In this document: positions 164 through 40,946 of the stretch, piece after piece
Layout of the letters: each line of letters opens with the position of its first letter
Numbering within the stretch: the first letter of the stretch is position 1
Source of the DNA: a virus
Virus record (IMG/VR): IMGVR_UViG_3300005542_000012
Location: 1 to 43,830 of that record
Reading direction: 5' to 3' (one strand)
Length of the DNA: 43,830 bases
Notes under the pieces: model-generated
The model's database searches: none
Told to the model about the DNA's origin: nothing
What the model saw: the letters and a program-made list of their open reading frames with translations, nothing else
Translations under genes and position numbers: made by a program

Positions 164-867
164 TAGGGAGAAATCCTTGTAGTCGAGCGCACCGCGTCTT
201 CCGAAGTCACGAACTGCCGGTCATAGCTTGCCGTGAACTGCGGCCGCATCATCATGGTCTCAATGCTAGCCTCGTAACTCTGTGCCGCAGTGACGTAGCG
301 GGAGTCATTCGATCCGTACACCCGTTTATTGATGCGCGCCTCCATGCCTTCCACGATGATGTTGTGGTGCCACGGAGGAATGATGGGGACGGTATTAGAA
401 GATGTTTCTTTGCCGAGGTTGGGCATCGCCCAGAACGTTATCTCAGCGGGATAAGTCTTGTCGGGAGGGTCGATGCGAAGCTTGTTCCAGGTAGTCGGAT
501 CGATGGTGTAGCGTGAGGGCTGCGCCTGGGTCTGGTTCTGCTTCATCGCGATAATGCCTGCCCGGTCGAATATCGGGGTGAGGTCAACGGTCTGTAATGG
601 GTTTACTTGCAGGATGAGTACGATACCGATGATTTCTTCCACTGCGACATCAGTCAGGTTAGGAGTGAAATTTGCGGGAACGGTGAAGTCGTAAGTCACA
701 ATTCCCTGAGTGAGATTGAAAGTTACATCCCACTTCCTCCACCAGTGCCGGCCGCGCTTGCAAATGTCGATACAGGTCGAGGCGAAAACCAGATTGAGGT
801 CTAAAATCTTCTCGCCCTTGCGCTCAGTGTACTGATTGGCGAGCTCGATTATGTCTGACCGGTTCAC
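163..867 (-). CDS. Head-tail adaptor / tail tubular protein A-like (234 aa)
   Basis: The 234-aa protein starts with ATG at 867, overlapping the end of the epimerase gene by four bases. It is immediately followed by the large tail protein. The N-terminus (NRSDIIELANQYTERKG) followed by aromatic and beta-rich segments, a TIDPTTWNKLRIDPPD stretch and a C-terminal PPWHHNIIVEGMEARI helix has the feel of podovirus connector/tail tubular A proteins. Size and placement just before the tubular-B-like gene support that. No signal peptide or catalytic motif is seen. The family assignment rests on resemblance and synteny only. Confidence 0.6.
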   Translation of the reverse strand: MNRSDIIELANQYTERKGEKILDLNLVFASTCIDICKRGRHWWRKWDVTFNLTQGIVTYDFTVPANFTPNLTDVAVEEIIGIVLILQVNPLQTVDLTPIFDRAGIIAMKQNQTQAQPSRYTIDPTTWNKLRIDPPDKTYPAEITFWAMPNLGKETSSNTVPIIPPWHHNIIVEGMEARINKRVYGSNDSRYVTAAQSYEASIETMMMRPQFTASYDRQFVTSEDAVRSTTRISP

Positions 868-1874
868 TGGGCTACCGCCTCACATACCTTCAGAGTTCCT
901 GTGTAATAGGCTTCGTTGACTTGCTGCTCGATCCACTTGTAAGTGATGGTCAAGCCTTCACGCAGCCCAACTTCCGGCTTCCACTCTGGCAAGACTTTTC
1001 TCGCGAGTGTGTTGTCGGAGTTCCTTCCCCTCACTCCTTGCGCTCCCGAAACATGCTTGAAGGTAACGGGATATTCCGCTATTTCTGAGAGCATCTGGCC
1101 CAGTTCATTGATGCTCACCGTGTAATCGTTCCCGATGTTGACTGGACCGGAGTAATCGGATTCCATCAGTGAGACGAGTCCTTTGACGACATCCGAAACA
1201 TATATGAAGGAGCGTCTCTGTTCGCCGTCGCCCCACATCTCAATCTCTTTTTCGCCGCGCAGTTTCGCGATGGCGATCTTTCTAGACAGAGCCGCGGGAG
1301 CTTTTTCCCTGCCTCCCGTCCACGTCTCTTCTGGGCCGTAGACGTTATGAAAGCGGGTGACTCTGGTCTCAAGCCCATAGTCCTTCATGAAGTGCTCGCA
1401 GAGTTTTTCCGTGGTCAGCTTTCCCCAGCCGTAAGCAGCTTCGGGAAGTGCGGGGTAGACTTCATGCTCCTTGAGTGGCGCCGCATCCGTGGTCTCCTGG
1501 TTGTATTCCGGATAGACGCAGGCCGAGGAAGAAAACAGTAGTCGCTTTACTCCAAGTTCTTTCGCGGCGTTCAGGACATGTAAGTCGATGAGAAGGCTGT
1601 TTGAGAGTATCTCAGCGTGATGCGTGGTAATCCACCCGATTCCGCCCATGTCCGCCGCTAGATGGTAGACATGATCTATCTTCGGATTCTTCTGCATCAC
1701 CCGATAGGCAGCGGTCGCGATACGGAGGTCTGCGGTCTCAAAGTTTTTTGGAGAAGCGGAGAACTCTGGTGGTTTAACATCAGCTCCGATCACCGAATGC
1801 CCAAGTGCTTCTAAGTGTCTGACCAAGTGATGCCCGATGAACCCTCCCGCTCCGGTTACGAGGATGTTAGACAT
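864..1874 (-). CDS. GDP-mannose 3,5-epimerase-like NAD-dependent sugar epimerase
   Basis: This 336-aa protein is a short-chain-type nucleotide-sugar epimerase. It has a Rossmann GxxGxxG (GAGGFIG, residues 8-14), the active-site serine region SSSACVYP near 115-122, and the catalytic pair Y148/K152 in YGWGK. The segments RFHNVYGPEETWTGGREKAP and GVRGRNSDN closely resemble GDP-mannose 3,5-epimerases (EC 5.1.3.18), which make GDP-L-galactose and GDP-L-gulose for cell-surface glycans. It overlaps the upstream glycosyltransferase by 19 bases and the downstream adaptor gene by four, so it is co-translated with virion genes. Full length for the family, with no broken motifs. Another GDP-hexose epimerase/dehydratase specificity is possible. 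Confidence 0.85.
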   Translation of the reverse strand: MSNILVTGAGGFIGHHLVRHLEALGHSVIGADVKPPEFSASPKNFETADLRIATAAYRVMQKNPKIDHVYHLAADMGGIGWITTHHAEILSNSLLIDLHVLNAAKELGVKRLLFSSSACVYPEYNQETTDAAPLKEHEVYPALPEAAYGWGKLTTEKLCEHFMKDYGLETRVTRFHNVYGPEETWTGGREKAPAALSRKIAIAKLRGEKEIEMWGDGEQRRSFIYVSDVVKGLVSLMESDYSGPVNIGNDYTVSINELGQMLSEIAEYPVTFKHVSGAQGVRGRNSDNTLARKVLPEWKPEVGLREGLTITYKWIEQQVNEAYYTGTLKVCEAVAQ

Positions 1875-5144: not shown

Positions 5145-6362
5145 TTAGGAGTAAGAGGAAACGTCGAACAGCCAAGCGTGTTTGCGCTCGTGACGAATCT
5201 CCCAGCCTCCCTGAGTGCGGTACTCGTCCGTCCGGGTGGTGGAACCGTCCGGGAGCACGTTCTCAAATAGTTTGGTATCGCCTAAGAGGTTGTCGCCTCC
5301 GCCCTGCAAGTAGCGCCAAGCGATCGAAGGAAGATCGATCGAATAGCCATGCGAGTAGAAGTTGTTACCGCCTGAGGGATACCCGATTTCAGCCGTTGAC
5401 AGCCGATAGTCGTTGGCTAGCATGAATTCTCCCAAGGCCAACTCGAAGCGGCTGATCTTCACCCCAAACACCGTGTCACCGACCCGGGTCAGGAGCTTGT
5501 TCTGCGAGAAGAAGTTGAGCGCAGCCAATATCTTGGCCGAGCACAGAAACAGCTTTTGCTTTTCTCCCCAACGGAACGCGGTCTCACCAAAGGTGTTGAA
5601 ATTGGTGAGGGTGAGGGTGGTTGAAGCATCCGTCTTGTTGGTTGCGATACGCGGCAACCAACCCATCGTGGTCCAGCGCGAAGAGGGCGATGCCAAGCTC
5701 TCTGACGCGCGTGACCACAAGCCGGCCGCTTCAATCTCTGAGCGGTGACGGATAAGTGCCTTCACCAGCTGATACTTACGCTCACCTTGCGGCGCGCCGT
5801 ACTGCTTGGTAGAGGCTGCGGTGTGGGTGACTTTGACCGGCGTCTTGAAGATCTGGGCGTAGCTGATCTGCACCGTTTTTGCGGTGTAGCGCTGCGCTCC
5901 GATGTTGTCATCTTCTCTGAACGCCGAGGCCAGAATCTTAATGGAGCCAGTCGCGGCTATAGTGTCCGCGCCTGACCCACCTACGCCTCTGGTGATGGTC
6001 AAAGTGTTGGTTGCGATGGCGGTAACGAGAAACACTTCCGGAGCTGCGTTGGACGACTGCGCCTTAGGTACAGCGCAAATGTCGCCAACTCCGAACAGGG
6101 TTCCATCCGCTACCAGGATGTTGGTTGCGACCGAGGTGTAGTCGGTGGTGCCGTTGTTGGACTGGCCCCACAGCGCCACTTCGTTGTCCTCAACCCACTC
6201 AAAACGCGGTGCGATCGTGGGCTGTTTTCTCTTGGCGGCATTGGTGAAGACGAATAGCGGGGACGCATCCGGCTCCAGCAACACCATCTGCTCAGACACG
6301 TCGCGGACCTGGGTGGTGTCCGAGACCATCTGATTGAAACTGCGTGCTACGCTTAATGCCAT
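5145..6362 (-). CDS. Major capsid protein (SU10/DUF5309-like, 405 aa)
   Basis: A 405-aa protein with no cysteine-rich or catalytic motif. It has the extended N-arm followed by a FEWVEDNEVALWGQSN block, a beta-rich middle with DICAVPKAQ and FLVTAIATNTLTITRGVGG, then AQRYTAKTVQISYAQIFKTPVKVT. This pattern is typical of SU10-type/DUF5309 major capsid proteins with the HK97 fold. Position (directly after a Glu/Gln-rich scaffold-like gene and downstream of terminase and portal) agrees. ATG at 6362 is the natural start and the spacing to the scaffold gene is 35 bases. Confidence 0.82.
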   Translation of the reverse strand: MALSVARSFNQMVSDTTQVRDVSEQMVLLEPDASPLFVFTNAAKRKQPTIAPRFEWVEDNEVALWGQSNNGTTDYTSVATNILVADGTLFGVGDICAVPKAQSSNAAPEVFLVTAIATNTLTITRGVGGSGADTIAATGSIKILASAFREDDNIGAQRYTAKTVQISYAQIFKTPVKVTHTAASTKQYGAPQGERKYQLVKALIRHRSEIEAAGLWSRASESLASPSSRWTTMGWLPRIATNKTDASTTLTLTNFNTFGETAFRWGEKQKLFLCSAKILAALNFFSQNKLLTRVGDTVFGVKISRFELALGEFMLANDYRLSTAEIGYPSGGNNFYSHGYSIDLPSIAWRYLQGGGDNLLGDTKLFENVLPDGSTTRTDEYRTQGGWEIRHERKHAWLFDVSSYS

Positions 6363-10069: not shown

Positions 10070-12231
10070 GCTTGTCGGCTGAGATTGGTTTCTGGCTCAG
10101 TGTCTTTTGGCTGCTCACTGGGCGCGGTCGAGAGTAAGTTATCGGCAGCTGTTCCGGCTTGATCGAGTTTCACGATTCCGCGCAGAGTGTCATCGTGGCC
10201 AAGCTCTTCTGAAATCTCCGGCGTCATCTGCACACCGCCGGCCGTAAGGATCTGTTCCTGCACATCGGCGGGTAACTCTGGCCACTTGGCCGCAATTGTC
10301 ATCGAGACTTTAGGCGGAGGATTAGGAGGAGGTTGCGGCGGTGGCACAGCTTTGTCCGGATCGACTCCGCGGATCGTGCTAGCAAAGAAACGCGCTACAT
10401 AATGCGGGTCCCAGACTCCAGGCTGTTGCGAGGCTGCCTGCATCATCTGTAAAGCGGACTGCCGGCGGATGTCATCGTCTACGGAGAGCATTGACATGGC
10501 AGCGGGCTCTACCTCGAACTCGTCCTGGATTTCTAGTTGGTCTAACGTCACCCTTGCGGTCTTGCCGTAACGGTTTGAAAGCGCCTCGACTTTGTTGACG
10601 TACTTTTGCCCGATCTGATAAGGCTCGTCGGCTTCTTGCTGTTGCAGCATCCAGAGCTTCTTTTCCCCCTGCTCTTTCAGATACCAGTTGAGCGAGTCGA
10701 GCTCGAATTGCGTGAGGGCGTCGGCAGACTTTGCGGCAAGCACCGCTGTAGTCGCTGTCTTTCCTGCTTGCGGATTGGAGTCTGTGCCGGTCTCGACGTT
10801 GGTCAGATTTGGCTCTGCTAGGGCCATCATGCGCATGATCTGCGCTTCCTCTTCCCCAGCCCCCTGAATAGCCGCTGAAATAGGAGACATGTTCTCGAAA
10901 AGCAGACGGAAAGAATCGAGGTCCTTGACCACAATCTCTTTAAATAGTTTGCGGTCCGTAAGCTCATCAGGTATGTCAGCTAGCGCTTTCCTTAGAACCA
11001 TTGGGCGCAGGATGTTTCCCACCAAGTCCTTGCGCGCACCTACTGTGGCATTGTGTAAGGACTGAAGGAATCGCAGCAGCCGTGGTGTCGAATCACCGTA
11101 AGCTGAAAGCTCATCAAATAGCGGAACGAATTCGGTGTAGACGTATTTCCCATAAAGGTCCCAGGGATAAGGCATCGAACCCAGAACGAACTTCTCATTG
11201 CCTATCCAGGTGATCCACATCTGCCCATCTTCATCGCGGGCGTGATGCTCAAGGATGTCGAAGCGCTTTCCGGGAATGAGCTTTACCGGGAATAGTGGGA
11301 CTTGCTGGCCGAGCACAGAGGTACGAAAGCGGGTACGCAGATCATATGGCTGCTGCGTGCCTTGATTGGGGTTCCAGCTTCCCATATCGAACAAGTCTGC
11401 GACTGCCTTCTTGTCGAATATTGGGACTTCGGCGCCGGATTCCGGGTCAATGTAAGTCCGCTGCGCCATCTTTTTCAGCCACAGGTCGGTCTCCCAGTAG
11501 TTCTCTACCGCCCATCCAGATTCGTTAAGGGTTGGTGCGCCGGGTTCCATGAAGAAGTCGCCGATGAATATCCACTTCGCGCACGGGCCTTCATACTTCG
11601 TGAGTTCCTGGGGGACTTGTACAGTGTTCCCGAATCGCGCGATGGCTTGGCTCAATTCTTGGTCGTTGAGTTCGGTTCCGTTTTCGCCAAGCGAGCCTTG
11701 AATCTCATCCGGCGTTGCTCCCATCAGCTTCATGACTGAAGCCCGATCGCGGTAAGGGGCAGTCTCGCCGCGCTGCACGAATGAGCGGGTGAACTTCCGG
11801 TTTACGGTTAGAACATCCCAGTACAGTTTGCTCACTGAGAAGCCGAAGGTAACGCCAGATTGCACGAGTTTGCGGTGCTGCTGAACTTCGCCGGAGCGGT
11901 CAAATTGCTGGAAGGCCCATGCGGTAAGTTTGTCGGATATTTCGGGGCTTGAGTCAGACGAGTAATTGATCTGCGGAGGATTGGCGGTAAGCCGCGCGGT
12001 TTTTCTGCGCTTGATAAGCGAAGTCTCTGGCATGCACACGTTGGTGCGCGTGGTGTCCTCGATCTGTGAGCCGTCTTTAGCCGTGACCATGATCTTTTTG
12101 GTCAAGCACTTCGAGGAGCGGTAGACCTCTTCCCACTCGTCCCAATAGTTGATCTGCATGTAACGCCGTGACTCGTTGCGCCGGTCGAGAACGTCTGCTA
12201 GGTCGACCTTAATGGGAGGTTTATCCGCCAT
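10066..12231 (-). CDS. Portal protein (721 aa)
   Basis: The 721-aa protein lies directly after the terminase nuclease half, sharing one base. The N-terminus (NESRRYMQINYWDEWEEVYRS) is the start seen in large podovirus-type portal proteins. A typical region around WIFIGDFFMEPGAPTLNESG and FDELSAYGDSTPRLLRFLQ follows, then the long-helix crown region (AAKSADALTQFELDSLNWYL) and a Pro-rich C-terminal stretch PPPQPPPNPPPK. Portals form the dodecameric gate for DNA entry and dock the terminase. Length is within the range of large portals. Confidence 0.82.
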   Translation of the reverse strand: MADKPPIKVDLADVLDRRNESRRYMQINYWDEWEEVYRSSKCLTKKIMVTAKDGSQIEDTTRTNVCMPETSLIKRRKTARLTANPPQINYSSDSSPEISDKLTAWAFQQFDRSGEVQQHRKLVQSGVTFGFSVSKLYWDVLTVNRKFTRSFVQRGETAPYRDRASVMKLMGATPDEIQGSLGENGTELNDQELSQAIARFGNTVQVPQELTKYEGPCAKWIFIGDFFMEPGAPTLNESGWAVENYWETDLWLKKMAQRTYIDPESGAEVPIFDKKAVADLFDMGSWNPNQGTQQPYDLRTRFRTSVLGQQVPLFPVKLIPGKRFDILEHHARDEDGQMWITWIGNEKFVLGSMPYPWDLYGKYVYTEFVPLFDELSAYGDSTPRLLRFLQSLHNATVGARKDLVGNILRPMVLRKALADIPDELTDRKLFKEIVVKDLDSFRLLFENMSPISAAIQGAGEEEAQIMRMMALAEPNLTNVETGTDSNPQAGKTATTAVLAAKSADALTQFELDSLNWYLKEQGEKKLWMLQQQEADEPYQIGQKYVNKVEALSNRYGKTARVTLDQLEIQDEFEVEPAAMSMLSVDDDIRRQSALQMMQAASQQPGVWDPHYVARFFASTIRGVDPDKAVPPPQPPPNPPPKVSMTIAAKWPELPADVQEQILTAGGVQMTPEISEELGHDDTLRGIVKLDQAGTAADNLLSTAPSEQPKDTEPETNLSRQA

Positions 12232-13244
12232 CAGTAGGCCACTCCGTTAAACAGCGGCTTCCAAGGGTGCTGAGATTTGCGCACTGGCGGAACGAATTCC
12301 AAACCGCACAGGCAGGCGTATTTCAAGAGGTCGGTCAGATGGTTGCGCTTGGCAATCGGCTTAGGAGAGGGGTCGCGTTTATCGGCCATTACCGGAGTGA
12401 GGGTTTCAAAGCGGTTGTTGCGCAGCTCCCAGATCAGCTCCGGGCACTCGCTCTCGATGATGTGTAACCGGGATTTGCCTTTGAAGGTTCCATCCAACTG
12501 CTCGACTAAACGAGGCTTTAGCCACTCGTTCACGGCTTCAATGCCGGCTTCAACGTCTTTTATGGCGTCGTCAAAAGTCATGCCATAGCCAATCTCTGCC
12601 GAGACTTCTTCGTAGCGCTGTTGGATGGAACGCTGGTCAACGTCATCTGTGGTGGGGACAAAGCCGCGCGCCGCGTAGTCGATCACGCGCTTGTAGATTT
12701 CAAGGTCCTTGCCGTGGTTCTTTTCGCACTGCGCCGATTCCAGATACTTGATGGTCTCGATGTAATCACGAATGCGATAACGGTTGTCATCATCCGGCGT
12801 GCTGCCTGATTTTCCGTAGATTTTTGAAGGCCAGAGTTCGCGGAAGGCCCAAGCATCTCCCCATTTGTCGACTCGTATCCAGAGATGAGCGTGAGGAACG
12901 CGAGGATGAGGATCAAGGAAGTAGTAATCTGTGCCTTCTTTTGGTAAAGCGGAAAGCGGTTCGAGCGTGGCTGAGTCTTCAAGCTGGTAGAGAAGCGCTC
13001 CTGACTTGGCCGAGAAATCAATCTCAATCTCCTGGAAGAACGACCGCTTGTTGGTGAAGCCGTCATATTGCGCCTTGGCCCACGGCGAAAGCCATACACT
13101 CTCCTGCGGTAGAAATACCTTCTCGCCTTGGTTCTTATCTTCGTCGGCTGAGTAGTGCAGCCGGAAGATATGAATCCCGTTCTCGTTATCCCACTCTTGG
13201 ATACCAGTGTGGGAGCTATTTTCCGTAGAAACGGGGATAGCCAG
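12231..13244 (-). CDS. terL: Terminase large subunit, nuclease half, no canonical start codon
   Basis: The open frame runs from a TAG at 13247-13245 to the stop at 12231, about 337 codons. It carries the C-terminal nuclease domain of a large terminase: GIHIFRLHYSADEDK, QEIEIDFSAKSGALLYQL, YYFLDPHPRVPHAHLWIRVD, DAWAFRELWPSKIYG and RVIDYAARGF. No ATG, GTG or TTG occurs in the first ~185 codons; the first is GTG at 12686, well inside the domain. Start options are CTG at 13244, ATC at 13238, ATT at 13175, or a frameshift from the preceding gene, whose end it overlaps by 29 bases. The matching ATPase half lies 1.65 kb upstream. Splicing, a rare start codon, or a dead gene are all possible. Confidence 0.75.
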   Translation of the reverse strand: MAIPVSTENSSHTGIQEWDNENGIHIFRLHYSADEDKNQGEKVFLPQESVWLSPWAKAQYDGFTNKRSFFQEIEIDFSAKSGALLYQLEDSATLEPLSALPKEGTDYYFLDPHPRVPHAHLWIRVDKWGDAWAFRELWPSKIYGKSGSTPDDDNRYRIRDYIETIKYLESAQCEKNHGKDLEIYKRVIDYAARGFVPTTDDVDQRSIQQRYEEVSAEIGYGMTFDDAIKDVEAGIEAVNEWLKPRLVEQLDGTFKGKSRLHIIESECPELIWELRNNRFETLTPVMADKRDPSPKPIAKRNHLTDLLKYACLCGLEFVPPVRKSQHPWKPLFNGVAY

Positions 13245-13659
13245 CTACCTTCTTGGTGGTCTTTCCGGCGCCGGGAGAGCTGAGCGATGGATGTCCGACC
13301 GGAGCAGGACTGTTGAGCTTGGGAGCGACTTTGCTGCTGATGCCGCTCTTGGGCTTTTGCACTGGGTTGAATATCCCTCCGCCTGAATCGCGGCCGGAGG
13401 CTGTCGGCGCCATTGCCGGGCCTTGAGAGCTCTGGAATGGCATTGGCGAGCGCGAAGCCATCTGCTGCGCCTGCGAGGACGAATCGCTGTATGCCGAACT
13501 TCCACCAGGCGACATCTGCGAAGCCGCGCCGGTGATCGGACGATTGCCCTTTGGCTCCGGCGACACAGCCTTTTTGGTGGGCTTAATTCCTGAACCCGGA
13601 GCAGGATTGCTACCTTGGAAATGCCTTCCCTTGTTAACGTCTCTGCCTTTGAACATCAC
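13216..13659 (-). CDS. Low-complexity Ser/Pro/Gly-rich protein inside split terminase (147 aa)
   Basis: A 147-aa basic, disordered protein rich in Ser, Pro, Gly, Lys and Met (for instance SAYSDSSSQAQQMASRSPMP and GAGKTTKKVAGYPRFYGK). Its start overlaps the end of the phosphatase gene by four bases, and its TAG stop lies inside the open frame of the terminase nuclease half. Just before the stop it contains a CCCC run (TAT CCC CGT, around 13232-13237) where a +1 slip would carry ribosomes into the nuclease frame. No domain is recognised. Composition is like that of other disordered virion proteins in this genome. Confidence 0.55.
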   Translation of the reverse strand: MMFKGRDVNKGRHFQGSNPAPGSGIKPTKKAVSPEPKGNRPITGAASQMSPGGSSAYSDSSSQAQQMASRSPMPFQSSQGPAMAPTASGRDSGGGIFNPVQKPKSGISSKVAPKLNSPAPVGHPSLSSPGAGKTTKKVAGYPRFYGK

Positions 13660-14234
13660 TGCACCTTCCTGATTGAGATTGAGTTACCGTTCCTGACCAA
13701 TTTCGTGATCTGCGCTCCGCGGGGCTCATCGAACTTTACGTCTCCAAGCTCAGCGTCGAAGCCGTTCTTCGCCCAATGATGGATTAGCTGCATATCGCGC
13801 GCATGAGAGACGACCGCAATAACCGGATCGTCGTCCTTGAACTGGTGCAGCCATTCTTTCTTGATCTTCTCTGCCCACGGCCCAATGGACTCACCCTTGG
13901 GAAAAGCCAACGTTGGGCGTCTATAGAAGAACTCAAGATACGGTTTGACTGTGGAGTTCTTCTTACCAGCCAAAGAGCCAATATCGAGCGGGGCGAGATT
14001 CGGCCTGACAATGACTTTAGCTTTGAGCGCTTTGGCCACAATCTCCGCGGTCTGCCTGGTTCTTTTGAGCGGAGAGCAGTAAACGCAATCAATCCCTAAG
14101 TCGGCGAGTGCTCGCCCTGCTGAGCGGGCTTGCATCTCGCCTTTGTGACTCAATCCTTCGTTGATGAGTCCCTGCGCACGGTCTTGCATGTCGTACTTGG
14201 TGTCGCCGTGCTCGACGTGGTAGATGATGGCCAC
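13656..14234 (-). CDS. Histidine phosphatase superfamily (phosphoglycerate mutase-like) protein, 192 aa
   Basis: The protein follows the histidine-phosphatase pattern. The N-terminal motif appears as VEHGDT (residues 7-12), with catalytic histidine at 9. CSPLKRTRQTAEIVAKAL carries the second arginine, and VVSHARDMQLIHHW the second histidine. The usual first arginine of RHG is a glutamate here, so phosphatase activity may be altered. The family dephosphorylates small metabolites or proteins. The gene abuts the 71-aa gene upstream and overlaps the low-complexity gene downstream, and it lies between the two halves of the terminase. Confidence 0.75.
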   Translation of the reverse strand: MAIIYHVEHGDTKYDMQDRAQGLINEGLSHKGEMQARSAGRALADLGIDCVYCSPLKRTRQTAEIVAKALKAKVIVRPNLAPLDIGSLAGKKNSTVKPYLEFFYRRPTLAFPKGESIGPWAEKIKKEWLHQFKDDDPVIAVVSHARDMQLIHHWAKNGFDAELGDVKFDEPRGAQITKLVRNGNSISIRKVQ

Positions 14235-14450
14235 TTAGCTGAGAAAATTGCTGGCCGCGGAAACGTGGCCTACCGACTCGATCACGCAGGAGCCAATGCC
14301 GTTATTGGTCTTGCCGTTGTTGGTTAGTACCGCGGTAAGCGCATCAAAGCCACTGCTCGCGGCCAGAACGTTGTCCTGGAAGGTATCTGAGCAGCGCTTA
14401 CCGTTCTTCTCAAAGTGATAAGTTACCCGAAACACTGAGCTGGTTGACAT
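14235..14450 (-). CDS. Small hypothetical protein inside split terminase (71 aa)
   Basis: A 71-aa protein with a beta-rich start (SSVFRVTYHFEKNGKRCSDTFQDNVLAAS) and an Asn/Gly-rich middle. Two bases separate it from the methyltransferase upstream and none from the phosphatase downstream. No membrane segment, signal or known motif. Function unknown. Confidence 0.55.
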   Translation of the reverse strand: MSTSSVFRVTYHFEKNGKRCSDTFQDNVLAASSGFDALTAVLTNNGKTNNGIGSCVIESVGHVSAASNFLS

Positions 14451-14452
14451 CC

Positions 14453-14911
14453 CTATTTCTCCTTTTCCATCATGACAAAACGAACGTATGCTCCGATTCT
14501 TTCTGGGCGCACCGTGCCATCAACTTTCCGGTAGCGAGTGAGCTTCTGGCATTCAGCCGTGCCGGTGGGAGCGACGATCCGGCCGCCTTCTTTCAATTGC
14601 TCCGCCCAAGCCTGGGGAATCTCTGGAACTCCGCAAGTGGCTACAATCGCGTCGAATGGCGCCACATCGGGAAGCCCTTTGGCGCCATCTCCGTAACTGA
14701 GATAGACATGCGGTCCCAAGGCATCCGAGATTTTGTATTCCCGCGAGAGTTCTATGCTGTGCACCTCAGCGCAGTGATCTTGCCAAACCGAGGTCTGTGA
14801 ACCTGTCCCCGTGCCTATTTCAAGTAACCGGTCTGTTGGCTGCAACTCAAGCATTCCCAGCATGAGCAAAGTCGCTTCAACTGCCGGTACGGGGGGCTCT
14901 ACCGCGAACAC
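14453..14911 (-). CDS. Protein-L-isoaspartate O-methyltransferase-like SAM methyltransferase (152 aa)
   Basis: It starts with GTG at 14911, behind GGAGA, within the last 13 bases of the terminase ATPase half. SAM-binding motif I is LLEIGTGTGSQT (residues 30-40) and the later block ATCGVPEIPQAWAEQLKEGGRIVAP is typical of protein-L-isoaspartate methyltransferases (PCMT/Rossmann). At 152 aa it lacks the first ~50 residues of cellular PCMTs. It may be a minimal phage form that methylates a protein or a small molecule. It is the first of four genes separating the two terminase halves. Confidence 0.72.
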   Translation of the reverse strand: MFAVEPPVPAVEATLLMLGMLELQPTDRLLEIGTGTGSQTSVWQDHCAEVHSIELSREYKISDALGPHVYLSYGDGAKGLPDVAPFDAIVATCGVPEIPQAWAEQLKEGGRIVAPTGTAECQKLTRYRKVDGTVRPERIGAYVRFVMMEKEK

Positions 14912-15615
14912 TGGTCTCCGAACCAGCCCGGCCCCGCCGAACTGATAGCGATGATCTGGCCAGCCACCGGCTCAGCCGCATCGAAGCACTGCTGCGCTTC
15001 AGGAAGAAAGCTGGCTTCATCCATGATGTAGATCGTGGGATGGTGCATGCGGATCTTGTGCTCGCCCTTGGGAATGCCAAATACCCTGCCGCCCGACTGG
15101 TATCTCAACTCCGTAAGCGATGAATTGGCCAGCGGATGCTTCGCCCGTAACCAGTCTGGCTGATTTCTGTAGAGGCAGGCCGCGTAACCGACAAGCTCTT
15201 TCGCCTTGTCCTCCGCGTCGGTCTGTACGATGACCTCTGCTTTGTGCCACTGCGCTTGATGGGCAGCCCATAGCATTGCGCACCAAGAAGTCATCATCTC
15301 GCGCGTCTTTGGAATGAACAGCCGCTTGTATGTTCCGAAAGCCTGAAATAGCGGAACGAAGTAGCTCTTCTTGGGGAACTTCGAGCGCCACTCTAAACCC
15401 TGGTCTTTCCACTTGGGATTTTCGGTGAACGTCCAATTCTGTCCCCAGTAAAGAGCATCTCTCGAACACCACAGGTCAAGCTCCGTGTAGAGCTGCTCTT
15501 CAAAGGCTTCAAAGTCCGCATCACTCAGCTCCGCTATCGAAGCTGGCGAGAATCTCTTGCACGCGAGCGCGCCGATCAGCGAGGTCTCCGCTTGGCTTGT
15601 CTCCATCAAATCCAA
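14899..15615 (-). CDS. terL: Terminase large subunit, ATPase half (238 aa)
   Basis: This is the N-terminal ATPase domain of a DNA-packaging terminase. It has a deviant Walker A IPKTREMMTSW near residues 101-111, Walker B TIYIMDEAS (194-202) with the catalytic glutamate, and coupling motif ISSAGPGW (224-231). It then stops at TAG only a few residues later, exactly where the linker to the nuclease domain should begin. The nuclease half is found 1.65 kb downstream. The N-terminus overlaps the small-subunit gene by 95 bases; a later start is possible but no strong one is seen. The motor half looks intact. Confidence 0.85.
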   Translation of the reverse strand: MDLMETSQAETSLIGALACKRFSPASIAELSDADFEAFEEQLYTELDLWCSRDALYWGQNWTFTENPKWKDQGLEWRSKFPKKSYFVPLFQAFGTYKRLFIPKTREMMTSWCAMLWAAHQAQWHKAEVIVQTDAEDKAKELVGYAACLYRNQPDWLRAKHPLANSSLTELRYQSGGRVFGIPKGEHKIRMHHPTIYIMDEASFLPEAQQCFDAAEPVAGQIIAISSAGPGWFGDQCSR

Positions 15616-15874
15616 TCACCGCAACCGGCGCACGCCCAAAGCTCCGGTTAAGCAGATCGCGAAAGGTTTCTCCGCGGTGCCGGATGTCAGGAGCCGCCAG
15701 CAAGTGAAGAGCGTAGTCCTCGGCATCCTTGATCGTCTGTTTGGCCGGCAAGTCATTCAGGTTTAGCTCTCCAATGCGCTTTAGGACTCGCATAGAAAAG
15801 TCCTTTGCAATCAGTTCTTTGCTTAACCGTGTACGTCTCCTGCCTGCTCCCTTTCGTGCTCCTCCGTGTGCCAT
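15521..15874 (-). CDS. terS: Terminase small subunit-like DNA-binding protein (117 aa)
   Basis: The start MAHGGARKGAGRRRTRLSKEL is the glycine/arginine-rich N-terminus seen in many phage small terminase subunits and associated HTH proteins, followed by helical sequence. It lies immediately upstream of the terminase ATPase half, which it overlaps. Small subunits recognise the packaging site and load the large subunit. The assignment rests on the N-terminal pattern and position. Confidence 0.65.
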   Translation of the reverse strand: MAHGGARKGAGRRRTRLSKELIAKDFSMRVLKRIGELNLNDLPAKQTIKDAEDYALHLLAAPDIRHRGETFRDLLNRSFGRAPVAVIGFDGDKPSGDLADRRARVQEILASFDSGAE

Positions 15875-15919: not shown

Positions 15920-16447
15920 CTACTCGGCGGCTTTCTCTATCGCTTTACTGGCCTCTAAATCGCTGGTTTTAAGGTACTCTCCCGTGCTTGCGATCGAGCG
16001 GTGTCCTAACCTCTGGCGCACGTTATGAATCCCGGCTTTCTCGATTGTTTGCATCGCGATAGAGTGTTTGCAAACATGGGGATGACGGAGATGTTTGGGA
16101 ATGCCGGCCGCTTTGCCATGCTGCTGCACGATCTGCCAGAATCTCTCGCGGGTGAGTGGGAAGACGCGGCTTTGATTATGCAGTCCAATCAATGCCTTTT
16201 CAAAGCCTGTGGCTTCATCGAGTAGCGGATCGCTCGAACGCACGAGGGCTTGGGTGGTCTTCATGCTGCCTTTGAGCCGCTGCACTGTGAGGAATCCGTC
16301 TTGCACGTCAATCCGTTTGATTGCAACCACTTCCGAAGCTCTTAGCCCGTGCCAGTAGGCCACCAGGATCATCAACCAATCACGCTCGCGGACTGCGCGC
16401 GCTTGCGTCAGAAGCGCTCGAAGTTCCTCTTTTGATAATGCTTCCAC
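15920..16447 (-). CDS. Catalytic-domain-only tyrosine recombinase (175 aa)
   Basis: It has the catalytic residues of a tyrosine recombinase: R36 in YWHGLRASEV, HPHVCKHS (residues 122-129, with Lys in the usual second-Arg position), H149 in RLGHRS, and nucleophile Y158 in STGEYLK. The core-binding arm domain of full integrases is absent. The start is GTG at 16447; a TGA stop lies two codons upstream in frame, so the gene cannot be longer. Such short recombinases occur in late operons of other phages and may act in resolution or DNA rearrangement. This is the second recombinase in the genome. Confidence 0.75.
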   Translation of the reverse strand: MEALSKEELRALLTQARAVRERDWLMILVAYWHGLRASEVVAIKRIDVQDGFLTVQRLKGSMKTTQALVRSSDPLLDEATGFEKALIGLHNQSRVFPLTRERFWQIVQQHGKAAGIPKHLRHPHVCKHSIAMQTIEKAGIHNVRQRLGHRSIASTGEYLKTSDLEASKAIEKAAE

Positions 16448-18302: not shown

Positions 18303-18373
18303 CTCGCCCACGCCACCTACGTCTTAGCAAATTGATTTCCTCCCCTCGCAGGAAATCCACAGAAAGACCCAGC

Positions 18374-19546
18374 ATGAAAAGCTCAACTCTCTCATTCCAC
18401 ATCACTTTGCCCAAAGATAATGCACCAAATGATGTGCATAACAATTCTATTGACAGGCGAACATCCGGCGAATATATTTCTCGGCTTCAGCACACGCTAG
18501 GGCACCTTGAATGCCCAGCCTGTGACCTGAGCCGGATGGTACTCATGCAGTCTTCAGAGTTTTCTTCAGAGCGTTTCGAGCAAGCCTCAGCGGTTTGGTT
18601 GGAGTCGCGAATCAGGTACATCTCTCCCCGCACAGCACACGATTACAAGCAATATTTATCAGCCCTGGTTCCCTTCTTCGGCTCGCTGACGTTAGAGGAA
18701 ATCCACATCGTCCACATTCGGGAATATCAAAAGCAGCGCAGCGAAAAAGCCGGGTCGTTGCGAGTCAATCACGAACTGGGCGCGATGCAGCAGATTCTTA
18801 AACGCGCCGGGCTATGGGCTGCCATCGAAGCCCACTATGAGACGCTTCCCATTTCAAGGCCGAAACCAGGAAAGGCAATCTCACCGGAAGATGAAGACCG
18901 CCTGTTTTTGATCGCCAGCAAAAAGCCCAGATGGAAGGTAGCGTACTGGGCGAGTTCACTTACAGCGAATACCACAGCCGGGCCGGGAGAGATTCGACAC
19001 TTGCGAATCGGTGACGTGGATTTGAACAAGAAGCTTTTGTACATCCGTGAAGGCACGAAGAATGAGTTTCGGGTGCGCAAAATCCCCTTGAATGACCGGG
19101 CTTTCAAGATGGTTTGCAGGTTGCTGGAAAGAGCCGACAAGATCGCCAAGCGCCAGAAGCAGGAGTTGAGCGGAGACGATTATCTTCTGCCTCATCTCAG
19201 AAGAAATGGCATGGGCTCAGGGTATGACTTTCAAAAACCGATGTTCTCTTGGAGATGCGCGTGGAATTCGTTGCGCGAGGCGGCAGGCCTGAAGAAGTTG
19301 CGACTTTATGACCTCAGACATTTGGCGATCACAAAATTGCTTGAGAATCCCGATGTGAGCGAAGAGACGGCGCGCGCAATAGCTGGCCACATCAGCCGCC
19401 AGAGCATGATGCACTACTCCCATGTGCGGCAACAGGCCATGACAGATGCGGTGAAAGCGCTGGAAGCTCCGGGGTCGAGGTTAAGGCCAGTGCGGATGAA
19501 GATAGACCCCTACTGGCGGCCTGTGGAAAAGAAGGATGTGGGGTAA
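18374..19546 (+). CDS. int: Phage-type tyrosine integrase (390 aa)
   Basis: A SAM-like core-binding domain (FEQASAVWLESRIRYISPRT..., with SLTLEEIHIVHIREYQKQR) is followed by a catalytic domain. In the catalytic region the usual R-x-G-E appears as AGPGEIRHL (first Arg missing), the HxxR box as YDLRHLAIT, then AGHISRQSMMHYSHVRQQ with nucleophile tyrosine. ATG at 18374 is chosen; TTG at 18332 would add 14 residues. It would recombine attP with a host attB. The tRNA-Ser-like element at 19.84-19.89 kb is a good candidate site. The missing Arg I may be a family variant or may reduce activity. Confidence 0.75.
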   Translation: MKSSTLSFHITLPKDNAPNDVHNNSIDRRTSGEYISRLQHTLGHLECPACDLSRMVLMQSSEFSSERFEQASAVWLESRIRYISPRTAHDYKQYLSALVPFFGSLTLEEIHIVHIREYQKQRSEKAGSLRVNHELGAMQQILKRAGLWAAIEAHYETLPISRPKPGKAISPEDEDRLFLIASKKPRWKVAYWASSLTANTTAGPGEIRHLRIGDVDLNKKLLYIREGTKNEFRVRKIPLNDRAFKMVCRLLERADKIAKRQKQELSGDDYLLPHLRRNGMGSGYDFQKPMFSWRCAWNSLREAAGLKKLRLYDLRHLAITKLLENPDVSEETARAIAGHISRQSMMHYSHVRQQAMTDAVKALEAPGSRLRPVRMKIDPYWRPVEKKDVG

Positions 19547-21225: not shown

Positions 21226-22467
21226 ATGTCACAACCAGCCTACAACAATTCACCTGAATTATCTAGTTATCCGAAAGTGGGGGTGCAGGGCGGAACCGGA
21301 ACCGGCAAGTCCACCACAATCGGCCTGATAGTGCTCGGCGCCGCCGCCGAACTCTACAACCGCCGCGCTGTCTATGTGGCGGACACCGAACCCGGCTGGC
21401 AATTCCTGAAGCCGATTTTTGATGCTGAGGGAGTTCCTCTGATTATCCGGAACACCCGCTCATTCCTGGGAATGCATGAAGCTCTCAAGGAGGCAGTGGG
21501 CGCGAATGCCTGCGGCTTCGTGGTGGATTCCATCACGCATCCCTGGTCAGAACTATTGCTGCGCTTCGCTGATTCCACGGGGCGGGTTCCCTTCCACAAG
21601 TTCAATCAGATACGCCCACTGTGGAACGAGTGGACACGCGACTTCCTCAACTCTCCGCTGATGGCCTTCGCCTCTGGGCGTTTGACCTGGGAGTACTTCT
21701 ACGAAGAAGCCGAGGACGGCAAGAAGGAACTCATCAAGGGCGATACCAAGATGAAGGCCGGCGGATCGGAATCGTTCGGCTATGAACCGCACTTGACCTG
21801 TGAGATGTACCACGAGCGCAAGAAGGCCAAAGGCGGCAAGCTCGGCGGGATGCAGTATCGCTGCGTCATCCTCAAAGACCGCTCCCGCGTTCTGAACGGG
21901 CAAGAGTTTGTCTGGGATGACATTGGCCAGTACAAGAAGGGCGCATACAAGCCAGTATTCAATAAATTCCTGGCGCACTTCAAAAACCTGGCGCAGATCA
22001 CCAGCCCTGTGCTGCCCAATGACACCAGCGAAGCGCTCATTCCCAATGGCGACTCGTCTTACTACAAAGACCAGAGAGAGCGCACGGCGCTCCTTGAAGA
22101 GTGGGATGCCACGGTGCTGAAGCTATCCGCCGGCATGACTGCGGATGAGAAGCGCTTCCGCCTGATTCTCGGAGAGGCCATCACCGGAGTCATATCACGC
22201 ACCCGCTTTGAACAGTTCCCAATGGATCGCATTCAGAACTGCGTATTGATTCTGATGCGTTTCGAGGAGCGCTACCGCAGCGAGAAGGTAGCGGCAGAGA
22301 AGGACATCAAGGCACTGGTGGAACTCTGCCGGAAAGAGATGGCACCCATCACGCGCGACTTTGACCGTTCACGGGGAGTCGAGCAGTTCATCAAGAAAGC
22401 TCCAGAGAAAACTTTGCTCGAATCGCAACTCGAAAAATCCATCGAGCAAGCCCAGGCGGGTGACTGA
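21226..22467 (+). CDS. AAA/RecA-like ATPase, Sak4-like recombination protein (413 aa)
   Basis: An N-terminal ATPase core with Walker A GGTGTGKST (residues 22-30) and Walker B CGFVVDSITH (D101), the latter typical of the AAA_24/Sak4 group. A charged helical C-terminal half of about 170 residues follows. Sak4-type proteins are RecA-like single-strand annealing and strand-exchange partners in phage recombination or replication. It is longer than canonical Sak4, so the extra C-terminal part may have another role. It is the only obvious DNA-metabolism ATPase in the genome besides the terminase. Confidence 0.75.
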   Translation: MSQPAYNNSPELSSYPKVGVQGGTGTGKSTTIGLIVLGAAAELYNRRAVYVADTEPGWQFLKPIFDAEGVPLIIRNTRSFLGMHEALKEAVGANACGFVVDSITHPWSELLLRFADSTGRVPFHKFNQIRPLWNEWTRDFLNSPLMAFASGRLTWEYFYEEAEDGKKELIKGDTKMKAGGSESFGYEPHLTCEMYHERKKAKGGKLGGMQYRCVILKDRSRVLNGQEFVWDDIGQYKKGAYKPVFNKFLAHFKNLAQITSPVLPNDTSEALIPNGDSSYYKDQRERTALLEEWDATVLKLSAGMTADEKRFRLILGEAITGVISRTRFEQFPMDRIQNCVLILMRFEERYRSEKVAAEKDIKALVELCRKEMAPITRDFDRSRGVEQFIKKAPEKTLLESQLEKSIEQAQAGD

Positions 22468-28420: not shown

Positions 28421-29218
28421 GTGCTGACACATGGCAGCTTGTTTACAGGGATTGGCGGCGTGGATTTGGGGTTTGAACGAGCAGGAATCCGCACCGTGTT
28501 CCAAGTTGAGAAGGACGAATTTTGCGGAAAGGTGCTGAAAAAACATTGGCCTCAGACCTTGAGAATTTCCGATGTGACATCCTTTCTGGCGGATTCCCCT
28601 GTCAGGACATCAGCGTTGCCGGCGAAGGACTCGGCATTGACCTCGGAATCCGCAGCGGACTGTGGCGAGAGTTCGCCAGACTCATTCGCTTGCTACGACC
28701 AAAGTACGCGTTCGTGGAGAACGTCGCAGCTCTGCTTGACGGGGATATTGGCCGAGTACTCGGCGACCTGGCCGAGATCGGGTACGACGCGGAATGGGAT
28801 AGCCTTCCGGCGGCCGCCTTTGGTGCCCCTCACCTCCGTGATCGGCTGTTCTGCGTGGCCTACCCCAACGGCCAGCGATGTGTACACGGGCAACTTGAAG
28901 GACAGTCAGCAGAAACCTGGCTGCAAACACAGCGTCACGCTGGCGCAAGCCGCAACAGTGGGCAGATACGAGGGAAGGCCGGAATCCTGGCGGATGTGGC
29001 CGACGCCCATAGCGCGAGATTCGCGGACATACAAGGGCGCGCAACGTCAGCCGAACGCACTAGGAACGGAGCCGCTGGTAATCATCGCTGGTGGGACATT
29101 GAACCCGAATTGGGTCGAGTGGTTGATGGGATACGAAATCGGATGGACATCCCTCGAATCAAAGCCCTCGGTAACAGTATCGTCCCCCAAATCGCGGAGT
29201 GGATCGGAAGAAGAATAG
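28421..29218 (+). CDS. Cytosine methyltransferase locus, frame A (N-terminal motif I and 'TWPRSG/LNPxWVEWLMG' type C-terminus, 265 aa)
   Basis: Starts with GTG at 28421. The first 48 residues, with GSLFTGIGGVDLGFERAG, are motif I of C5 cytosine methyltransferases. Later in the same frame come YSATWPRSGTTRNGIAF, PPLVPLTSVIGCSAWPTPTA, a second WPTP block and GGTLNPNWVEWLMG, all familiar from the C-termini of phage proteins annotated as DNA methylases. The catalytic PCQ and ENV motifs are not in this frame; they are in the overlapping frame B. Frame A is open throughout. It is either an alternative product or the 5' part of a frameshifted gene. Confidence 0.6.
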   Translation: MLTHGSLFTGIGGVDLGFERAGIRTVFQVEKDEFCGKVLKKHWPQTLRISDVTSFLADSPVRTSALPAKDSALTSESAADCGESSPDSFACYDQSTRSWRTSQLCLTGILAEYSATWPRSGTTRNGIAFRRPPLVPLTSVIGCSAWPTPTASDVYTGNLKDSQQKPGCKHSVTLAQAATVGRYEGRPESWRMWPTPIARDSRTYKGAQRQPNALGTEPLVIIAGGTLNPNWVEWLMGYEIGWTSLESKPSVTVSSPKSRSGSEEE

Positions 29219-29516: not shown

Positions 29517-29668
29517 AACTAACAACCGAGCAGCGACAAGAACTCTACACCCTTATGCAGCAGTGGCACCGCAATGCTGACTTGCAATTCCAGCACACCG
29601 CTGACTAGGTCGATAAGCAACTGGAGTCAGCTTCTTATGCTGAGTTGAGCCGCCGAGGGAAGCCATGA
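29513..29668 (+). pseudogene. Small gene interrupted by an in-frame TAG (51 codons)
   Basis: From ATG at 29513 the frame gives MKLTTEQRQELYTLMQQWHR and 11 more residues, then meets TAG at 29606-29608. The following codons (VDKQLESASYAELSRRGKP) continue without another stop to TGA at 29666, which overlaps the ATG of the next gene, as do most junctions in this operon. CAG to TAG is a one-base change. The gene is thus a nonsense mutant, or TAG is read through. Other genes use TAG as stop, so a recoded genome is unlikely. Confidence 0.6.
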
Positions 29669-30135
29669 GCCATGCGTTGCGCATCGTTCCGATGACGATT
29701 AAGGCTGCTAACAAGTTTGTGGCGGAGTGGCATCGTCACCACAAGCCGGTAGTGGGCGCGCTGTTCGCTATCGCTTGCGAGGACGGGTCAAGAACGTGCG
29801 GAATCGCCATCGTTGGCCGTCCAGTAGCGCGAATGATGCAAGATGGCTTGACGGCTGAGGTCGTGCGCCTAGCGACCAACGGTACGAAGAACGCCTGCTC
29901 CAAGCTCTACTCTGCTGCGTGGCGCATCTGCCGCGAGATGGGCTACCTGCGACTCGTGACCTACATCCTCAGCAGCGAATCAGGTACGAGTCTGCGAGCT
30001 GCGAACTGGCGTATGGTCGGAAACACTACGGGCGGGTCGTGGTCGCGCCCCAGCCGAAACCGAACCGACAAACACCCGCTCGAAAGCAAAACACGGTACG
30101 AAGTGGGAAGCGGAGCACGAAATGACCGAGCTTAG
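29665..30135 (+). CDS. XF1762-like GNAT-type phage protein (156 aa)
   Basis: The sequence has ALRIVPMTIKAANKFVAEWH, the HRHHKPVVGALFAIA block, IAIVGRPVARMMQDGLTAEV with RLATNGTKNACSKLY, and MGYLRLVTYILSSESGTSLR. This pattern defines a widespread phage family (XF1762) related to GNAT acetyltransferases. The substrate is unknown. Overlap with the preceding frame by four bases. Confidence 0.7.
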   Translation: MSHALRIVPMTIKAANKFVAEWHRHHKPVVGALFAIACEDGSRTCGIAIVGRPVARMMQDGLTAEVVRLATNGTKNACSKLYSAAWRICREMGYLRLVTYILSSESGTSLRAANWRMVGNTTGGSWSRPSRNRTDKHPLESKTRYEVGSGARNDRA

Positions 30136-40087: not shown

Positions 40088-40393
40088 CTAGCCTCCATAA
40101 AACGGGTTCTTGGGGCCTTGCACCCCGAAATACCTCGGATCGACCATCGGCGCCTGTGGGGTATTGATCGGCGGCTGAAAGCCTTGGCTTTGGGCGTTGC
40201 CCTGCTGCTGGAGCCCTTGTCCGAGTCCAGAGAGGCTATTGGACAGCGCTTTGCGGGCGAACATCTGCCCTTGGGTCAATCCTTGGTTTGGGTCGGCGAC
40301 CGTCTTTGCTCCCGGCGTTCCCGTAGCGACCGCTTGGCCACCCAGCATATCGTTCGTCGCGCTGGGGTCTAACTTTCCTAGTGCTTGTCCCAT
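40088..40393 (-). CDS. Small Gln/Gly-rich virion protein (101 aa)
   Basis: The start is ATG at 40393 with AGGAG eight bases upstream; a longer frame to 40483 overlaps the previous gene. The product is Gln/Gly/Ser-rich (SLSGLGQGLQQQGNAQS) with a Pro-rich end. Likely a disordered minor structural protein. Confidence 0.5.
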   Translation of the reverse strand: MGQALGKLDPSATNDMLGGQAVATGTPGAKTVADPNQGLTQGQMFARKALSNSLSGLGQGLQQQGNAQSQGFQPPINTPQAPMVDPRYFGVQGPKNPFYGG

Positions 40394-40403
40394 GATCGTT
40401 CTC

Positions 40404-40946
40404 CTAGAAAGGAATCGCGCTGGCCAGTCCGCCAGCCACGCCGCCGAGTAAGCCGCCAATCCCAGGTTTTTGCAAAGGCGCATTCATGATGGAAGCGTTT
40501 CCGCCGATGGCCTGCCCGGAGTAAGCCGTGGGGTTGGCGATCTGCGCCTGACCCATAAGCCCCGCAGCTCCGCCCTGCTTTGCCGACTCCTGTGCCTGGA
40601 GTCCTTGCATAAGCTGGTCGTCAAATGCTCTGGCCTGCTGAGAATCAAGGTCGGTGAGCGCCTGATTGCGGAATCCGGATGGCAAGCCTTGTTGCGTTCC
40701 CAGACGTTGAAGTAGCTGCTGGCGAGCTGGCGCAAAACTTCGCGCCACAAGCCCCGAACTGGCGTCGGTGAGTTGATTGAAGTACGGCAGCCCATTGTTC
40801 ATGCGCGAGGTATAGAACGGGTTTACCTTGTTCTGCTGGTTCTCCAAGAACTGCTCTTGCCGGCCGTAGGTCCCGGAAAGTTGGTTCGTAAGATTCGCTT
40901 GCGCGTTGGCTGCATTATTTTGAGCTGAAGTTGGACCGCCGCCCAT
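40404..40946 (-). CDS. Gln/Ala/Gly-rich structural protein (180 aa)
   Basis: A 180-aa protein with NAANAQANLTNQLSGTYGRQ, a middle helical region (RNQALTDLDSQQARAFDDQL) and a Gly-rich tail (GGLLGGVAGGLASAIPF). The Gly-rich amphipathic end might insert in membranes, as in DNA-ejection proteins. This is inference from composition. Confidence 0.5.
   Translation of the reverse strand: MGGGPTSAQNNAANAQANLTNQLSGTYGRQEQFLENQQNKVNPFYTSRMNNGLPYFNQLTDASSGLVARSFAPARQQLLQRLGTQQGLPSGFRNQALTDLDSQQARAFDDQLMQGLQAQESAKQGGAAGLMGQAQIANPTAYSGQAIGGNASIMNAPLQKPGIGGLLGGVAGGLASAIPF

Follow-up and report, generated by a model that had tools for sequence, protein, structure and literature searches.

To our knowledge, the large terminase (TerL) is a single protein in nearly all studied phages. 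T4-type TerLs, such as those of phage T4 (gp17), Rhodothermus phage RM378 and Flavobacterium phage immuto, combine a T4-type core and a T4-type nuclease in one polypeptide. BcepC6B-type TerLs (BcepC6B, Rollin, Hodr, Pmp11 and Ss1) are likewise fused, measure ~450-540 aa and carry an ordinary GSGK[ST] Walker A motif, and the large terminase of Geobacillus phage D6E is also a single chain. In some actinophage annotation lists, the ATPase and the nuclease domain of TerL are each given a gene of their own. In herpesviruses, the terminase ATPase/nuclease gene UL15 contains a spliced intron, with genes inside it on the opposite strand. The role of the TerL lid and the relay of core hydrolysis to the nuclease domain are the subject of competing models. 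The window analysed here, the whole of IMG/VR record IMGVR_UViG_3300005542_000012 (43,830 bp), encodes a large terminase in two genes, cut between the ATPase core and the lid. Searches of open-access papers for split terminases found no description of such an arrangement, which is weak evidence, as most subscription journals lay outside the search.

Gene 1 has the same ASCE core as T4-type TerLs, and its profile matches those of RM378 and immuto with 117-119 bits. In contrast to these enzymes, the terminase here consists of two polypeptides, the cut falls after motif III, and the core is T4-type whereas the nuclease is not detectably so. BcepC6B-type TerLs have a nuclease domain like that of the wider family described below, but their ATPase does not match gene 1. 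The D6E enzyme is the best fold match for gene 2, although as a single chain. As in UL15, a terminase gene is interrupted by others; here, however, these lie on the same strand and there is no sign of splicing. An earlier note on this DNA had described a TerL divided by ordinary co-directional genes, at coordinates that agree with the open reading frames (ORFs) and Pfam matches of the window. The nuclease half, said there to resume 1.65 kb on, has a frame that is open stop-to-stop at 12231-13244(-) and begins 1,654 bp past the ATPase stop. In the gap, four tightly packed, co-directional ORFs, all on the minus strand, encode the proteins that the note had listed: a PCMT-like methyltransferase (PF01135), a 71-aa protein, a histidine phosphatase (PF00300) and a low-complexity protein. 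Its picture of one interrupted TerL captured the split and was otherwise incomplete, since this family usually has TerL as two genes, which are adjacent in many relatives.

The position of the cut was located on AlphaFold2 models of the two products (predicted local distance difference test, pLDDT, 93.6 for gene 1 and 84.3 for gene 2). Residues 1-235 of the gene 1 model correspond to residues 65-300 of T4 gp17 (Z 21.5; E=2e-22 for the gene 1 profile against gp17), and the model also aligns with P74-26 (residues 4-192) and with D6E up to residue 186. The ATPase domain construct of gp17 reaches ~360, whereas the gene 1 match ends at 300. Residues 1-309 of the gene 2 model correspond to D6E TerL 166-415 (Z 18.5 over 230 residues), with Z scores of 14.9 for P22 and 14.6 for HK97, and isolated nuclease-domain structures (P22, SPP1, T4-like RB49 and G20c) align only from residues 73-79 of the model. 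Since the match to D6E begins at residue 166 and the D6E lid-to-nuclease linker comprises residues 230-241 (PMC5727402), gene 2 starts well upstream of the linker. The first ~72-75 residues of its product are predicted to complete the ATPase domain and to contain the lid. The ASCE core up to and including motif III is encoded by gene 1, and the last strand, lid, linker and RNase H-like nuclease by gene 2. The ATPase half had been thought to end exactly at the linker; it ends earlier, after motif III and upstream of the lid. Because the cut lies inside the ATPase domain, both chains would be required for a functional ATPase module. A profile search of the PDB with the nuclease domain of the window's clade alone gave no match.

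The pair contains an ASCE core with Walker A, Walker B and motif III, a lid that follows the core but stands on the second polypeptide, and an RNase H-like nuclease with three acidic residues. Unlike a canonical TerL, it is encoded in two ORFs 1.65 kb apart, and it appears to work like TerL as a two-gene variant. The earlier assignment of Walker A, Walker B and motif C was confirmed as an ASCE core, though the Walker A is deviant (PKTREMMTSW, a KSR form): the usual GK is replaced and an invariant lysine occupies the position preceding T/S-R. Flavobacterium phage immuto, whose T4-type TerL is fused, also has a KSR-type Walker A without GK (KSRQLGIST). Across 66 sequences of gene 1, K100, R102, W108, R186 and E197 do not vary, and D196 is almost invariant. 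In gene 2, D105 and D183 are invariant and D299 is conserved in at least 90% of 56 sequences; the three align with the three aspartates of the D6E nuclease motifs and are candidate metal ligands. For both genes, nonsynonymous differences (pN) in the clade are 0.08-0.24 against saturated synonymous differences (pS) of 0.73-0.96, and both halves are under strong purifying selection.

Searches with each half, and then with small alignments, identified 15 distinct contigs, the window among them, that make up a clade; L014 and L015 are one sequence from two samples. The earlier note had proposed looking for the split in related genomes, and it is kept in all 15. Each has the order ATPase, PCMT, further genes and nuclease, followed, where the contig extends, by the 721-aa portal-like protein, and the gap between the halves ranges from 1.2 to 5.4 kb. 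In all 15 loci the ATPase gene ends 13-14 aa past the start of SSAGPG and gene 2 starts ~22-24 aa before HYSAD. An Acidobacteriota metagenome-assembled genome (MAG) carries ATPase, PCMT and histidine phosphatase on one contig (L130) and nuclease and portal at the edge of another. As this MAG carries the locus, the host is probably an acidobacterium, although binning of a prophage is no proof.

A wider family was reached with an alignment of the nuclease half, which matched 320 IMG/VR stretches, 80 of which were taken further; stop-to-stop ORFs were classified with profiles of both halves and the loci were deduplicated. This gave 71 loci with both halves. In 61 of them the split lies at the homologous point, and in 10 a single ORF encodes both halves; the ratio is biased and gives no frequency because the queries were built on split members. 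About 20 split loci have a gap of <120 bp, many of them overlapping, and the remaining gaps measure 0.15-5.4 kb (full range -22 bp to 5.4 kb). For instance, the halves overlap by 22 bp in L034, and a single small ORF separates them in L032. In L031, L033 and L034 the neighbouring halves each have their own ribosome-site-like sequence and ATG; in L033 the second ATG precedes the first stop, behind a GGAGG-like site. Across the family, wherever motif III is readable, the ATPase gene stops 13-34 aa past the start of this motif, and gene 2 starts ~17-46 aa ahead of [L/V]HY[ST]AD; the corresponding stretch measures 50-54 aa in those fused members whose motif is clear. These fixed stop and start positions therefore indicate one homologous gene boundary and not scattered breakage. 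Apparently nuclease-only contigs are mostly short fragments, but L073, which first seemed to be one, has an ATPase near the other end of its 50.9-kb contig, which would leave a gap of ~3 kb on a circular molecule.

The best explanation, which is very probably correct, is a large terminase made as two polypeptides that assemble non-covalently into one motor. The two would be translated separately from one co-directional gene run, with the nucleotide-binding ASCE core (Walker A, Walker B and motif III) supplied by gene 1, and the last strand, lid subdomain, linker and RNase H-like nuclease supplied by gene 2. The chains would meet on the portal, where core and lid from different chains would form one motor subunit that presumably packages DNA. 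The cut would fall in a loop that in relatives tolerates a gene end, an overlap, a ~50-aa linker (as in fused members) or a gap of several kb. This gap holds an accessory module in the Acidobacteriota-phage clade and unrelated genes in other lineages.

Several points weigh against this explanation. The window nuclease ORF has no ATG, GTG or TTG before 12686, and the site homologous to the start of its relatives reads ACG (13226-13224), so that translation could be weak, another codon could be used or a base could be wrong. Elsewhere in the clade, gene 2 starts with ATG in five cases, GTG in six, TTG in one and CTG in two (L025; L014/L015 counted once). In L016 the gene 2 ATG overlaps the stop of the upstream gene (TTCTATGGCAAGTGA), which encodes one of the FYG-tailed proteins described below; the window has TTCTACGGAAAATAG. 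Together, weak starts and overlap suggest translational coupling and a low output of nuclease. Phage gene fragments can also stay under selection for reasons besides packaging. No cultured phage with the split was found, all contigs being metagenomic, and binding of the two products and DNA packaging by them are what we infer.

Among the alternatives, the most durable, though improbable, is that the halves act apart, gene 1 as a lone translocase and gene 2 as a lone nuclease with a vestigial lid. Packaging ATPases of the phi29 type function without an active nuclease, and the partly independent inheritance of the halves described below would fit such a division. Yet every split member carries the conserved lid on the same chain as the nuclease, a placement that makes little sense if the two gene products never come together, and core and nuclease distances are still correlated across the family (Mantel r 0.90). 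Slightly less probable is a broken, decaying TerL whose packaging is done by another enzyme or a helper. The missing standard start codon and the deviant Walker A of the window are as expected from decay, but the arrangement is common to 61 deduplicated loci, selection is strongly purifying with catalytic residues invariant, the KSR form recurs in the fused immuto enzyme, and no second TerL ATPase was found in the window or in six relatives of 30-47 kb. A candidate second TerL at 21265-21390 was rejected as just a 10-bit, chance-level match.

That the gap is a large intron, or that trans-splicing or a split intein still yields a single TerL polypeptide, is very unlikely. Spliced terminase genes have precedents, introns in phage genes have been listed (PMC11878797) and the halves abut at one fixed place. 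However, no Rfam family, and hence no catalytic intron structure, reached its gathering score anywhere in the window, even if absence from curated families is no absolute proof. Nor are there intein segments at the broken ends: gene 1 stops 13-34 aa past motif III and the lid opens gene 2, which leaves no intein-sized segment. In relatives each half has a start of its own, and the two frames overlap or adjoin in different reading frames; the supposed intron would span from a negative length to 5.4 kb with varying genes. The earlier view that ordinary genes, and not an intron or intein, interrupt the terminase agrees with these results. An assembly chimera, which the earlier note had raised and which a single metagenomic contig might suggest, has negligible probability: it is refuted by independent contigs of different sample origin, and by the Acidobacteriota MAG, all of which show the same gene order.

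The two halves of this two-gene terminase differ in their affinities. The whole-family gene 1 profile matches T4-type TerLs (59-119 bits) and not BcepC6B-type TerLs. The whole-family gene 2 profile matches BcepC6B-type TerLs with 81-174 bits, mostly in the nuclease domain, and T4-type TerLs weakly, in the lid region only. In profile-profile comparisons (hhalign), the lid region scores 81-94% against T4-type TerLs and the nuclease 0.1-0.3%; for the family as a whole, the lid scores 94% against T4-type and 0.1% against BcepC6B-type TerLs, and the nuclease 100% (E=4e-52) against BcepC6B-type and 0.1% against T4-type TerLs. Taken by itself, the window clade has a T4-type core (98.7%) and a lid that matches the rest of the family (99.8%, E=1e-28). 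A plain BcepC6B-type assignment of the clade nuclease was rejected, as hhalign gives 10% for the clade alone; this nuclease is divergent and tied to the BcepC6B type only through L030/L032 (96%, 96% and 84%). These sub-domain matches give good support to a mosaic origin, with a T4-type core and a BcepC6B-type nuclease, in the wider family; for the window itself the support is no more than indirect.

In a core tree rooted with T4-type TerLs, the fused members are scattered tips nested among split ones, with five changes among family members, at least two of them forced by supported branches. The nuclease tree has three changes, two of them forced. The simplest reading is that the split came first and was re-fused at least twice, but the tree is quick, its outgroup is fused and the rooting, over long branches, is uncertain. 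Within the clade, the correlation of core and nuclease distances falls to Mantel r 0.46, compared with the family-wide value given above, and nearest neighbours for the two agree in 22 of 55 cases. Some pairs diverge equally in core and nuclease (L019-L026, 86/87; L017-L024, 87/86), but others do not, such as L019-L022 (core 62%, nuclease gene 91%) and L020-L021 (57% and 81%). Distance and tree conflicts led to rejection of fully congruent inheritance, and the halves appear to reassort partly between genomes. L034 and L043, at 49% in the core and 82% in the nuclease gene, take supported conflicting positions in the two trees; half of the motor seems to have been swapped between phages. A broader proposal, held with less assurance than the two-polypeptide enzyme itself but still probable, is a whole phage family with an obligatory two-subunit TerL, core and lid on different genes, in which the wider family joins a T4-type motor to a BcepC6B-type nuclease, the genes reassort, the gap takes up cargo and fused members are later re-fusions.

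With core and lid on different natural chains, association, exchange and swaps could be tested directly without cutting a natural enzyme, and phages of this family could serve to probe how motor parts cooperate. Searches of Pfam and PHROGs matched neither window half on its own, so phages of the clade may be scored as lacking a terminase.

The intervening genes, earlier described as unrelated, are a recurring set in the clade and form an accessory module, presumably not needed for packaging. PCMT is present in 15 of 15 clade loci, either next to the ATPase gene or at most a few hundred bp beyond it, and in the MAG contig L130. A histidine phosphatase (Pfam) is found in 11 of the 15, and homologues of the 71-aa protein in the gap of L012, L013, L017, L020 and L024. 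Every clade gap also encodes one to three strongly basic proteins, rich in Gly, Pro, Ser, Lys and Gln, whose C-terminus is F[Y/F]G plus one or two residues. With duplicates counted, 60 of the 3,612 ORFs of clade loci have this tail, compared with 1 of 5,925 elsewhere. These FYG-tailed proteins could be packaged internal proteins, or the tail a docking peptide. Usually one or two such basic disordered proteins (pI ~10-12) lie just upstream of the nuclease gene, and the window has a further one outside the gap at 40088-40483(-). Two clade loci have an extra ~600-aa fibre-like protein in the gap. In other lineages the gap holds an FkbM methyltransferase and a glycosyltransferase (L075), a UDP-glycosyltransferase-like protein (L091) or an HTH/sigma-like protein (L116). 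As its genes differ across lineages, the gap looks like a place where genes collect, of which the clade kept a particular set.

Table 1. Terminase locus of the window, in minus-strand order.
Feature	Position	Strand	Basis and remarks
Probable small terminase, 117 aa (MAHGGARKGAGRRR...)	15521..15874	-	ORF; overlaps ATPase gene start
Large terminase gene 1 (ASCE ATPase core, ending after motif III), 238 aa	14899..15615	-	ORF; C-terminus ...ISSAGPGWFGDQCSR*
PCMT-like methyltransferase, first cargo gene	14453..14911	-	PF01135, E=2e-27
71-aa protein, no function assigned	14235..14450	-	ORF
Histidine phosphatase, branch 1	13656..14234	-	PF00300, E=1.2e-27
Basic low-complexity protein, 147 aa, pI ~10.8	13216..13659	-	ORF; C-terminus ...YPRFYGK
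Large terminase gene 2, N-terminal part (ATPase-domain end: last strand and lid)	13002..13226	-	Homologous start site ACG 13226-13224
Large terminase gene 2, RNase H-like nuclease domain	12231..13001	-	AlphaFold2 model and structure matches
Probable portal/head-tail connector, 721 aa	10066..12231	-	ORF; directly downstream of nuclease gene

Gene 1 starts at TTG 15615, with ATG 15606 as a possible alternative, and its stop is overlapped by the PCMT gene by 13 nt. The product of the ORF upstream is probably a small terminase, judging from its position and basic N-terminus; family searches gave no match, and L004 has a similar small ORF (5715-6059) at the equivalent place. The 721-aa protein, for which no family match was found, is probably the portal or head-tail connector, going by its position, and homologues with 54-70% identity lie downstream of the nuclease gene in clade relatives. 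Adjoining the small terminase upstream in at least three clade members is a short tyrosine-recombinase-like ORF (~175 aa, PHROG integrase), at 15920-16447(-) in the window, 233-778 in L003 and 5188-5718 in L004; the window also has a separate full-length integrase at 18332-19546(+). No tRNA was found in the window. A nucleotide-sugar epimerase (867-1874(-), PHROG 540, E=7e-73) lies close to the contig end. Two further genes, for a DNA methyltransferase (28421-29218(+)) and a Mom-like protein of DNA modification (29665-30135(+)), suggest that the phage DNA is modified.

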